Shown here: positions 43,769 through 48,479 of the stretch, piece by piece
Layout: every line of letters starts with the position of its first letter
Numbering within the stretch: the stretch's first letter is position 1
Assembly: GCA_002894665.1 (NCBI GenBank)
Contig: NCRB01000002.1
Location: forward strand, 1-64,000
Direction: 5' to 3'
DNA: 64,000 nucleotides
Source of the DNA: Salinivenus iranica
GTDB lineage: Bacteria; Bacteroidota; Rhodothermia; Rhodothermales; Salinibacteraceae
Made by a program: the position numbers and the translations under genes
Notes under the pieces: generated by a model
The model's database searches: none
Told to the model about the DNA's origin: nothing
What the model saw: only the letters and a program-made list of their open reading frames with translations

Positions 43769-44530
43769 TTAGAGGCTCATCTCGTCGCGAAACGTACGCG
43801 AGCGCCGGTGGGACAATTCCACCTCGGTCCCCCCCGTCAGATGAGCAACCAGCTTCCCACTGGAACGGCTGCTCATGTCTTCAACCCACTTGAAGTTGAG
43901 TATGTGTTGGCGACTGGCACGAAAATACTGGTCCGGATCGAGACGTTCTTCGAGATAGGTCAGCGATCGGTGGATCAGTGGCTCTTCGTCGTCGAAATAA
44001 AGCTGGGTGTAGTTGCCGGCGGCCTCAAACAAGCGCACCTCGCCTAAGCGCACAAACCAGCAGCGGCGCCCGTCCTTTACGAACACCTGGTCCTCGGCGC
44101 TGAGCGTGTCGGGCTCTTCCCCCTCGTCGGGGGCCGGTTGAGACACCGGCCCTGCCCGTTCGCCCGATAGGGCGGCCTGTTCCTGCACTGTGTCGAGGGC
44201 CTCGGCGAGGCGCTCTTCCTCGACCGGCTTTACGAGGTAGTCCAGCGCGTTCACCTCGAAGGCACGGATCGCGTACTCGTCGTAGGCGGTCACGAAGACC
44301 ACGTGCGGCACGTCGTCTAGACGCTCAAGGAGGTCGAACCCGCTGTCGCCCGGCATCTGCACGTCGAGCAAGAGCAGGTCCGGATCGACCGCCTCAATGG
44401 TCGCCTCGGCCTCGGTAGCATCGGCCGCCTCCCCGACCACATCGACCGAATCATGGGGCTGGAGCATGCGACGGAGTTCGCTGCGCACAAGGCGCTCGTC
44501 GTCAACGAGGAGGGTATCAAGCGTGGACAT
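43769..44530 (-). CDS. LytTR-family response regulator
   Basis: A 253-residue regulator. Residues about 1-120 are a receiver with the acidic pair (LLVDDERL), phospho-acceptor Asp in LLLLDVQMPG and the Lys of YLVKPVEEERL. After an acidic linker, about 150-250 form the LytTR DNA-binding domain (VFVKDGRRCWFVRLGEVRLF, YFRASRQHILNFKWVEDM, VELSHRRSRTFRDEM). It lies 81 bp downstream of the double LytS-type kinase and is the obvious phosphate acceptor for it. Confidence 0.95.
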   Translation of the reverse strand: MSTLDTLLVDDERLVRSELRRMLQPHDSVDVVGEAADATEAEATIEAVDPDLLLLDVQMPGDSGFDLLERLDDVPHVVFVTAYDEYAIRAFEVNALDYLVKPVEEERLAEALDTVQEQAALSGERAGPVSQPAPDEGEEPDTLSAEDQVFVKDGRRCWFVRLGEVRLFEAAGNYTQLYFDDEEPLIHRSLTYLEERLDPDQYFRASRQHILNFKWVEDMSSRSSGKLVAHLTGGTEVELSHRRSRTFRDEMSL

Positions 44531-44611: not shown

Positions 44612-47086
44612 CTAAGCACTGGCGGCCCCGATCGGGGCTGCGTCGCGAAGGGCACCCGCGGACGCAGGCAGTGCCGCACCGGCAGGATGCCCGTCCTCCA
44701 AGGCGGAGGGGAGTGGAATCTGAACGATGGCCGCAACCGTATCCGGGTCGTGTTGGACAAGTCGTAGCGACGCCTCTTCACCGAAGAGAAGCTGCAGCCG
44801 TTCGCGGGCATTCTCCAGGCCAATGCCGCCTCCGTGCTCCGCGCCGGTCCCCTCTCCCACCTGGCCCGGGTTGGTCACTCGCAGGCGAAGCGGGGACTCT
44901 TCGCCCTCAACGGCTGCATCGACCCGAATGGTGCCGCCCGCCCGGTGCTGCCCGATCCCGTGCTTGACGGCGTTCTCGACGAGGGTCTGTACCAGCATGT
45001 ACGGGACGTGGCGCTGCCGGGCCGCCGCCCCCACGTCCATCGTCCAGTCCAGCCGGTCCTCAAAGCGCACCGTTTCGAGCGACAGATAGGTCTCGACCGT
45101 GGAAAGTTCTTCCTGAAGGGGCACGGTCTTTTTGTCGCTCGCCTGCAGCGTCCGTCGCAGCAGACGCGCCAGGCGCCCCACCATTGTCCGGGCGCGCGCC
45201 GGCGCTTCGCTGATCAGAGAGCGCACGCTGGCAAGGCTGTTGAAGAAGAAGTGGGGATTGAGCTGCAGCTTGAGCGCCTCCAGCCGGGCCGTTTCGGCAC
45301 GCGCCTGCAATTTCTGCCGGTCAATCTCGGCCTGTCGGTACTTCCGGGCGGACTGCACGCCAAAGTAGAGGGCCATCCATATCCCCATAAATACCGAGAA
45401 GCCAAGCGCAGCGGGGACCATCTCATCCAGGACGGATCGCAGCCAGGGGACCCACGCGGCCGGCAACTCCGCCGGGTCCAGTGCGAGCGGGGAGGTGACG
45501 AGGACGTACGCGCTTCCCAGCAGCACGGCGGCGGCGCCGGCCCGTGGAAGAAGCTGTCGCGGGGACAGCGCCGACCAGTTCTTCCATTTTGCATACAGGC
45601 GGAAGATGTGAGTGAGCCCGACAGCTGGCGCAACGAAGGCCCCGATTCCCACCAGCCTCTCGAGGAGCTCTTCCCAACCTGGGGCCTGTCCATCCATGAA
45701 CACCACCACGCCCGTAAAAAGGGCAAGAAGGGCTCCCCAGCCTCCTGCCTGGCAGGCCCAGTAGCTTGAAGACCCCACCAGTAGGCGACTCATGCGGGTT
45801 TCGCCGGCATTGCCCGGGCCGCTGCCCCCCCTCTTCTCCTGCGAGAGGGCGGAAGGACGGTTCCCAGTGGAGGTCGGCGACGATGCGTCGGGCTCCGCTT
45901 CAGGCGCTCCGTTCGAAGACCTTGCGTCTCGGGGCCGCTCGTTTTCAGGCCGGGCGGCGCGCGGCAAAGCAGGGTCCTGGGAGGGATCTGCCGCCCCTGC
46001 TTCCTCAGCACGAGCGCCCGATAGGCGCGGGAGCCGCACGATCGCGGCGACCGTCTCCGGGCCGTCCTGCATCAGGGTCAGCGAGGCATCGTCCCCGTAC
46101 AGCAGGCGCAACCGCTCGCGGGCATTCTCCAGGCCCGTGCCGCTGCCCGGTGCGGCTCCTGCGCCTCCCTCCAGCTGGCCCGGGTTCGCGACGCGCAGGC
46201 ACAGCGTGTCCGGCGACGGTCCGTGGGCACCGTCCTCCACGCTCGCCTCCACCCGGATGGTGCCCCCGCCCCGGCGTTGCCCGATGCCGTGTTTAACGGC
46301 GTTCTCGGTGAGGGTCTGCACCAGCATGAACGGCACCGAGCAGCTCAGGGCTGCCTCGGAGGCGTCGACGGTCCAGTCCAGCCGGTCCTCGAAGCGCACC
46401 TTTTCGAGCTGGAGGTAGGTCTCAGTCGTCGAGAGCTCTTCTCGTAGCGGCACGGTCTCTTCCTCGCTGGCCCGCAGCGTTTTTCGGAGCAGGCGAGCCA
46501 GGCGCGCGACCATTTTCTTGGCCCGTCGGGGCGCCTCGCTGATGAGGGCACGTACGCTCGCGAGGCTGTTGAAGAAGAAGTGTGGGTTGAGCTGCAGCTT
46601 GAGGGCATCGAGCCGGACGGCCTGGGCCTCGGCCTTCAGCTTCCATCGGTCGACCTCCGCCTGCCGGTAGTTCCAGGCCGCGTGCACCCCAAAATAGATT
46701 GCCATCCAGGCCCCCACGACGAGCACGTTGCTCAGTGCTCCCTCGGCGAGCGGAGGCTCTGCTCGATTGTGCGCAACTCTGCCCAGCGGGCCGAAGACTA
46801 CGAAAAGAAGCTTGAGGCTGGTCAGGAGTCCCCCCACGACGACGGCGGCGGCTACGCCCCGCGGGACGAGTTGCTTCAGGGAAAGGCGCGTCCAGCCATG
46901 CCGCCCGGCATACGCCCGGAAGGCATGAGTGAGGCCGATGCTGAGGGCAATCGCCAGGAGCCAGTAGAGGAGGGTCGTCTGGATCTCACCGGGGGCCCAA
47001 TTTTCTGGGTGGATCCCCAAGGTGATGCCGGAGAAAAGCGACCATCCGGCAATCTGACACAGCCAGTAGGCGCGCGTGCGATCCAT
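44612..47086 (-). CDS. Tandem-duplicated LytS-type sensor histidine kinase (two kinases in one frame)
   Basis: One 824-residue frame holds two complete, similar units. Unit 1 (about 1-355) has four hydrophobic helices, a short coiled region, the LytS-type phospho-acceptor His169 (LQLNPHFFFNSLASVRALIS) and an ATPase domain (TENAVKHGIGQRRGGGTI, GTGLENARERLRLLYG). A low-complexity linker (about 356-431) follows. Unit 2 (432-824) repeats it with His612, VENAVKHGIGQHRAGGTI and GIGLENARERLQLLFG. Met432 at 45793 could also start a separate 393-residue kinase by internal initiation. Both should signal to the LytTR regulator downstream. Confidence 0.88.
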   Translation of the reverse strand: MDRTRAYWLCQIAGWSLFSGITLGIHPENWAPGEIQTTLLYWLLAIALSIGLTHAFRAYAGRHGWTRLSLKQLVPRGVAAAVVVGGLLTSLKLLFVVFGPLGRVAHNRAEPPLAEGALSNVLVVGAWMAIYFGVHAAWNYRQAEVDRWKLKAEAQAVRLDALKLQLNPHFFFNSLASVRALISEAPRRAKKMVARLARLLRKTLRASEEETVPLREELSTTETYLQLEKVRFEDRLDWTVDASEAALSCSVPFMLVQTLTENAVKHGIGQRRGGGTIRVEASVEDGAHGPSPDTLCLRVANPGQLEGGAGAAPGSGTGLENARERLRLLYGDDASLTLMQDGPETVAAIVRLPRLSGARAEEAGAADPSQDPALPRAARPENERPRDARSSNGAPEAEPDASSPTSTGNRPSALSQEKRGGSGPGNAGETRMSRLLVGSSSYWACQAGGWGALLALFTGVVVFMDGQAPGWEELLERLVGIGAFVAPAVGLTHIFRLYAKWKNWSALSPRQLLPRAGAAAVLLGSAYVLVTSPLALDPAELPAAWVPWLRSVLDEMVPAALGFSVFMGIWMALYFGVQSARKYRQAEIDRQKLQARAETARLEALKLQLNPHFFFNSLASVRSLISEAPARARTMVGRLARLLRRTLQASDKKTVPLQEELSTVETYLSLETVRFEDRLDWTMDVGAAARQRHVPYMLVQTLVENAVKHGIGQHRAGGTIRVDAAVEGEESPLRLRVTNPGQVGEGTGAEHGGGIGLENARERLQLLFGEEASLRLVQHDPDTVAAIVQIPLPSALEDGHPAGAALPASAGALRDAAPIGAASA

Positions 47087-47669
47087 CGATTCTCGCGACT
47101 CGATTCAAGAAGCCCGCACTTGGAGAAGGCCCCGGAGGCCCCGACTCTTCCCCGATGCATCGGCTCTTCGCTCCGAGGACAGGGTACCAGAGCGTGTGCA
47201 GAGAAGGAAGCGAAATCCCATGGGCGCAGACATCGTTCGATGAGCGTGCGCTTCCGCTGCTGGCCCTACCAGCGCGCCCGTCCGATGGTCGTCGTCTTCA
47301 CGTGGCAGCCACGTCATCGGGCGGTTCGCCTTTTGAAGCAGGCGCGAGAGCTCTGTGCGCCGCCTGGAGGCTTCGACAAAGGCGCTCTCCGCTGCGCACG
47401 CGGCTCTACGCACCGCAGAAGTCGCAGCGCGCGTCTTCGTAGCTGGCCTTGGGGGAACTGCAGCCGACAATTTCATTCTCGCTACGTTCGTCCAGAAATT
47501 CGGACGCTTGCAGGGAGCATCTCACGCCCATCGAGCGGCACAAACTCCCCCTCTTACTCCCTCATTTATCCTCACGCAACGATGGACGTCGGGGCCGCGC
47601 CGGAGACGGCGTCCGCCCGGCACACAAGGTTCTGCGCGTGCCCATCGAACAAAGCAACGATGTTCTCTT
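47087..47669. other. Intergenic region between divergent genes
   Basis: About 580 bp between the double kinase (minus) and the beta-barrel gene (plus). Open frames cross it, but they show no domain or acidic composition. No RNA gene, repeat or clear promoter was recognised. Confidence 0.4.
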
Positions 47670-48479
47670 ATGTTTTCGGACTCCTCTTTCCGATTTCGCC
47701 GATCTCTGTCTTTCATCGCCACGACCCTGCTCACCTCCGTCTTCCTGTTGGCAGCGCCCGCCCTGGGCCAGGAGGCATCCGACGCCCAGGGCCTGCCCGA
47801 CACCACCGACGCGCCGGCAATCTCCGGGCAGGTTAGTGGCGGACTCATTGGCGGCGTCCCGGTCGGCCGTCTTCGCGACAACGTCGGGCCCGGAGCCGGC
47901 GTCCGGCTCTCCCTTGGCGGCTGGATCAACCGAAGCCCCCTCCTGCTGGGTGTGGACGTCGGGTTTTTTGGGTACGGCCATGTGGAGAACGAGGTGCCGT
48001 TCAGCTCCACGGTCGGTCCCCGCGTGCCGGTGGAGGTGTCCACGAGCAACAACGTCTTGGAGACGCACCTGACGGCTCGCCTCCAATCCCGAACGGGTCG
48101 CTTCCGGCCCTACGCTGAGGCCCTGGCCGGCTTCAAATACCTGTTCACTCGCTCCCGCATTGATGAGGGCGACCTCGGCGACGAGGTGGCCGGATCCACC
48201 AACTTCGATGACTTTGCCTTCAGTGGCGGGCTCGGAGCAGGCATCGACATTCAGGTCTACCGGCAGGACAACCCGACCAAGAGTGTGCGCAGGGTGGACC
48301 TCCATCTTGGCGTGCAGTACCTGCTGGGTCAGGAGGCGGAATACCTCACGGAGGGGGCGCTCAGCGACCAAAACGGCAACGGGCAGCTCGACCGCAGTGA
48401 ACTGGACATTCGCCGCTCGCGGACGACCTTCCTGCAGCCGACGTTTGGCGTGACCATCCGGCTGGCCGACACGGACTAA
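47670..48479 (+). CDS. Outer-membrane beta-barrel protein
   Basis: A 269-residue exported protein from the ATG at 47670, with the signal peptide LSFIATTLLTSVFLLAAPALGQ. Alternating-hydrophobic strands typical of an 8-10-strand barrel follow (GAGVRLSLGGWINRSPLLLG, LETHLTARLQSRTGRFRPYA, FAFSGGLGAGIDIQVYR, RRVDLHLGVQYLLGQ), and it ends in a strand, TFGVTIRL. An insertion DQNGNGQLDRSELD looks like an EF-hand/dockerin-type calcium loop. The function is unknown; it may be monitored by the divergent sensor system. Confidence 0.75.
   Translation: MFSDSSFRFRRSLSFIATTLLTSVFLLAAPALGQEASDAQGLPDTTDAPAISGQVSGGLIGGVPVGRLRDNVGPGAGVRLSLGGWINRSPLLLGVDVGFFGYGHVENEVPFSSTVGPRVPVEVSTSNNVLETHLTARLQSRTGRFRPYAEALAGFKYLFTRSRIDEGDLGDEVAGSTNFDDFAFSGGLGAGIDIQVYRQDNPTKSVRRVDLHLGVQYLLGQEAEYLTEGALSDQNGNGQLDRSELDIRRSRTTFLQPTFGVTIRLADTD

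Follow-up and report, generated by a model that had tools for sequence, protein, structure and literature searches.

A conserved gene with two tandem histidine kinase units beside a single LytTR regulator in Salinivenus and a second genus of its family

The locus and the domains of its product

The window analyzed in this study is a stretch of 64,000 nucleotides from Salinivenus iranica (contig NCRB01000002.1). On its minus strand, one open reading frame that starts with an ATG at 47086–47084 and stops at 44614–44612 encodes a polypeptide of 824 amino acid residues with two histidine kinase units, which is referred to below as the double kinase. A response regulator gene begins 81 bases downstream of it on the same strand, and the two genes are probably in one operon. 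The features of the locus are as follows.

44612..47086 (-): gene with two histidine kinase units in tandem, 824 codons and a stop codon; same frame in three further species
46652..47086 (-): membrane sensor region of the N unit, residues 1–145, four predicted transmembrane helices
46037..46651 (-): kinase core of the N unit, residues 146–350, PF06580 DHp with His169 plus HATPase
45794..46021 (-): linker, residues 356–431, disordered, rich in A/S/P/G/R/E
45791..45793 (-): codon of Met432, a non-conserved candidate for an internal start
45323..45784 (-): membrane sensor region of the C unit, residues 435–588, four predicted transmembrane helices
44708..45322 (-): kinase core of the C unit, residues 589–793, PF06580 DHp with His612 plus HATPase
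43769..44530 (-): response regulator with receiver (Asp56) and LytTR DNA-binding domain, Response_reg and LytTR matches

The first-pass annotation of this DNA had described one frame with two LytS-type kinases, phospho-acceptors at His169 and His612, a low-complexity linker of about 75 residues and two intact catalytic halves. Most of this description was borne out. Two stretches of the double kinase matched PF06580 (E 1.2e-50; protein score of 170 bits, with a Pfam cut-off of 25.2), and the N and C halves each passed this cut-off alone, with 91.3 and 90.7 bits, respectively. HATPase_c was also over its Pfam cut-off, and two HATPase_c stretches were found at a looser cut-off. The NPHFFFN motifs at residues 167–173 and 610–616 identify His169 and His612 as the phospho-acceptors, the linker is 76 residues long, and the H box, N box and G2 box are present in both units, which supports the intactness of both halves. 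In addition, the kinase fold matches the GanS kinase domain (6swk). Besides PF06580 and HATPase_c, no Pfam domain was over its cut-off in the double kinase, a receiver domain among them, and NCBIfam contained no family for it. The product is two transmitters without a receiver in one open frame.

The term LytS-type, however, held for the kinase core (PF06580) and not for the membrane part. LytS proper possesses a 5TMR-LYT sensor, usually together with a GAF domain. Neither membrane region of the double kinase matched 5TMR-LYT (PF07694) at E values up to 5, and the protein is thus best classed as a member of the PF06580 kinases rather than as LytS proper. Its transmembrane helices are predicted at residues 7–25, 38–56, 80–98 and 116–134 in the N unit and at residues 445–463, 474–492, 518–536 and 559–577 in the C unit. 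Given that four is an even number, each unit should begin and end on one side of the membrane. A fusion requires units that start and end on the same side, and units with four helices comply. The linker between them is 83% disorder-promoting and contains 2.6% hydrophobic residues; its pLDDT was about 25–35 in a structure model that had a pTM of 0.47 and was built on six aligned sequences.

Distribution and origin of the double frame

A search for other genomes with the same double frame, which had been suggested in the first-pass annotation, identified three further species. The identities were 95% for Salinivenus lutea (G001, locus on NCRC01000010.1), 74% for a third species (G004) and 57% for a member of a second genus of the family (G018), where the end of the contig cuts the C unit so that this comparison covers the N unit and the linker together with the first of the C unit's membrane helices. 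All linker indels among the four species are multiples of three. Of the three forward frames, that of the double kinase is the only one open through the linker in every one of the four species; the remaining two are interrupted by stops there in most of them. Since no stop separates the units in any of the four species, translation of the N unit must run on into the C unit. The dN/dS of the linker was 0.73 against S. lutea and 0.67 against G004, and that of both sensor regions and both cores was 0.06–0.34, indicating purifying selection on the latter. The linker is a segment whose frame is kept and whose sequence is weakly constrained. The C-terminal tail (44612–44710) is not conserved: owing to a frame-shifting deletion in S. 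lutea, its sequence there departs from that of the window.

In a tree of the individual units, the N units and the C units formed sister clades (support 100/98). The N unit of G018 fell inside the N clade (support 100/96), and the single-unit kinases of relatives fell outside both clades. On this tree, the double kinase arose from a one-unit ancestor by a single duplication and in-frame fusion that preceded the separation of the G018 genus and Salinivenus.

Among the matches listed for 27 genomes of the family, 245 of the class and 395 drawn from the phylum, no further double kinase was found. The double frame was therefore seen in four species of two genera only, among the matches listed, a count that is limited by the match thresholds and includes the incomplete second unit of G018; relatives carry one unit. 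Several candidates were rejected. Long frames in G006, G024, G026, G054, G074, G126, G331 and G360 and on contigs C138 and C190 of G018 did not contain two units. A distant genome of the same phylum (G148) appeared to hold a second, independent double, with two matches and a frame of 919 codons, and turned out to hold two adjacent genes with a stop codon between them. At that locus (L061, 4351–7718), two separate PF06580 kinase genes lie a few bases apart, 5' of a LytTR-type regulator gene. By its gene order, the G148 pair with its regulator is an unfused counterpart of the double kinase.

Two transmitters in one chain have been described before. In a prokaryotic survey of 2010, they were found in 2 of 15,704 non-hybrid kinases and 51 of 4,650 hybrid kinases (PMC3018481). 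Similar to the double kinase, the two non-hybrids are transmitter-transmitter proteins without a receiver, a likeness by domain count alone (PMC3018481). The arrangement is thus known, albeit very rare, and the variation found here is a full membrane sensor before each transmitter. Tandem duplication plus fusion has also been described for a myxobacterial TRTTRT protein (PMC4603909). TodS of Pseudomonas putida, which works with TodT, likewise combines two complete transmitters in one protein with one regulator and integrates signals. Different from the double kinase, however, TodS is organized as PAS-kinase-receiver-PAS-kinase, lacks transmembrane regions and uses a His-Asp-His-Asp relay (PMC4321377, PMC3018481), whereas the double kinase has two membrane sensors and its chain contains no receiver. 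In Dictyostelium, DhkD likewise carries a pair of histidine kinase domains on a single polypeptide; it is, however, a eukaryotic hybrid that also has two receivers and a membrane segment of the single-pass kind (PMC3783435). With E. coli BtsS/BtsR and YpdA/YpdB, the double kinase and its regulator share the PF06580 core, the NPHF H box, HATPase_c and a LytTR regulator; BtsS, however, is a receptor with seven transmembrane helices (PMC10653868), while the double kinase has two four-helix units in one chain. The closest counterparts are single-unit PF06580 kinases with four transmembrane helices and a LytTR regulator (for example in G003, G007 and G011, and the C115 paralogue), which have the same core, membrane layout and adjacent regulator. 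They differ from the double kinase in having one unit per gene, in keeping the Asn at the eighth position after the His (H+8) and in a far more conserved DHp.

Divergence of the units and pairing of the cores

Alignment of the two halves, also suggested earlier, gave 212 identical residues of 366 (58%) over nearly the full length of the units. The identities between the N and C units were 33% for the membrane region, 77% for DHp and 65% for the ATPase domain; by this comparison, the sensors differ and the output does not. Given that the catalytic boxes are kept and both units are under purifying selection, neither unit looks like a decaying copy.

Measured against the ATPase domain, DHp changed about 2.7-fold faster in the double kinases than in the single-unit relatives (bootstrap 1.7–4.5, from 60 column bootstraps on a fixed tree). 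By unit, this relative acceleration was 1.7 (interval 1.02–3.5) for N and 3.8 (interval 2.0–8.3) for C. A comparable acceleration was not seen in the partner regulator when its receiver was set against its LytTR domain. In every unit of the double kinases, the Asn at H+8 is also replaced by Ala (NPHFFFNSLN to NPHFFFNSLA; region of residues 177 and 620, window 45233–46560, minus strand), while related single-unit kinases keep it. The faster DHp change and the shared Asn-to-Ala replacement fit a changed setting of dimerization, and loosened constraint or insulation would look alike. The faster change in particular could equally be read as insulation of two units or as loosened constraint.

Histidine kinases are mostly symmetric homodimers, and identical subunits make it hard to test whether each subunit reads its signal alone or both read it together. 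In a natural fusion with distinguishable units, each sensor, His and ATPase domain could be changed separately, and such a fusion would reveal how one regulator integrates two inputs. The double kinase is a natural test case for pairing inside one chain, with a placed origin and living single-unit relatives for comparison.

With diverged sensors, similar cores and one adjacent regulator, the arrangement is naturally read as two inputs that converge on one output, and the layout of two stimuli and a single LytTR regulator raised in the first-pass annotation is supported in this respect. At a probability of about 0.5, we propose that the two kinases of this conserved gene pass two cues to one regulator and that their cores most likely pair within the chain. 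The units would sense different cues via their diverged four-helix membrane regions, and both would act on the single adjacent LytTR regulator. The long disordered linker would let the two cores, on the same side of the membrane, reach each other, and a tether of 76 residues would keep their local concentration high, so that the 77%-identical DHp regions could pair in one chain as an asymmetric pseudo-dimer. Such a fixed 1:1 heterodimer of two sensors would be one input-integrating switch. Pairing within the chain is favored because of the tether and the still similar DHp regions. A covalent pseudo-dimer is thus compatible with all observations and, as we infer, favored on grounds of the tether; the high DHp identity permits N:C cross-pairing and does not prove it. 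The complete scheme, a single-chain heterodimer with sensors at 1:1 whose cores pair and phosphorylate one LytTR regulator and whose DHp interfaces diverged after the fusion, is tentative and falls somewhat short of even odds. A literature search of open-licence full texts did not find a single-chain kinase heterodimer outside receiver-containing hybrids.

Two chains might instead associate through N:N and C:C homodimers into an assembly of four cores, in which both sensor pairs feed one regulator and the fusion serves co-localization and fixed stoichiometry rather than pairing inside the chain. The equal retention of both units also fits such pairing. Most histidine kinases are homodimers, although an active monomer, EL346, is known from another kinase family (PMC10359499), and the LytS-type BtsS dimerizes, with its dimerization tied to activity (PMC10653868). 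Moreover, membrane regions of 33% identity could favor like-with-like pairing through homotypic membrane contacts, and insulation of two interfaces could account for the faster DHp divergence. However, DHp is still highly similar between the units, a flexible tether strongly raises the concentration within a chain and nothing seen enforces homotypic pairing, so that a dimer of chains is a real possibility with the odds against it.

Compatible with either kind of pairing, one core might phosphorylate the regulator while the other, for instance that of the C unit with its faster-changing DHp, has a regulatory or phosphatase role, akin to the hetero-pairing of RetS and GacS, for which a co-complex structure exists (7n0e). 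The larger DHp acceleration of the C unit and the loss of the H+8 Asn from all double units would agree with such a division of labor. Both units, however, keep the His, the Asn at +4, the N box and the G2 box, no decay was seen and the dN/dS of the core is low in both, which makes a modulating partner unlikely.

The first-pass annotation had also considered a separate short form starting at Met432. On this reading, the second unit would be made separately, or also separately, and the locus would be two kinases. The codon is ATG in the window and in S. lutea and GTG in G004, and unfused neighboring kinase genes of the family occur beside a regulator in the distant relative G148. The aligned codon of G018 is GTT, however, which is no start, a purine run resembling a ribosome-binding site was not found 5–10 bases upstream of Met432, and the open frame between the units commits translation of the first to the second. 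The short form is weakened by these results, and two products are quite improbable. Finally, although the 3' part of the linker contains a G7 run in the window and the codon-position bias of the linker is weak, an artefactual union of two genes through a missed stop or a frameshift is practically out of the question. The run is interrupted in S. lutea (GGGGGAGC) with the frame unchanged, and independent assemblies from the four species all show the conserved frame, with indels that keep it, which rules out sequencing error, frameshift and read-through of an intergenic stretch.

Regulators and neighboring genes

A LytTR regulator adjoins the kinase in most relatives, whether the kinase has one unit or two. 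The regulator of the window is 98.8% identical to that of S. lutea, and the adjacent LytTR regulators of the single-unit relatives and the C115 paralogue are 60–70% identical to it. The paralogue lies in the same genome (C115, L053, 1880–3735) and is a single-unit kinase of the subfamily; the LytTR regulator that accompanies it is 60% identical to that of the window.

Upstream of the double kinase and divergent from it, a gene at 47667–48479 (+) encodes a protein that resembles an outer-membrane beta-barrel and probably has a signal peptide. A specific link between this protein and the double kinase was rejected, since 20 of the 27 family genomes encode the protein and most of these lack the double kinase. 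Its gene adjoins the double kinase in all four species, yet it is also found throughout the family at other sites, where the kinase has one unit. It is a possible target of the regulator.
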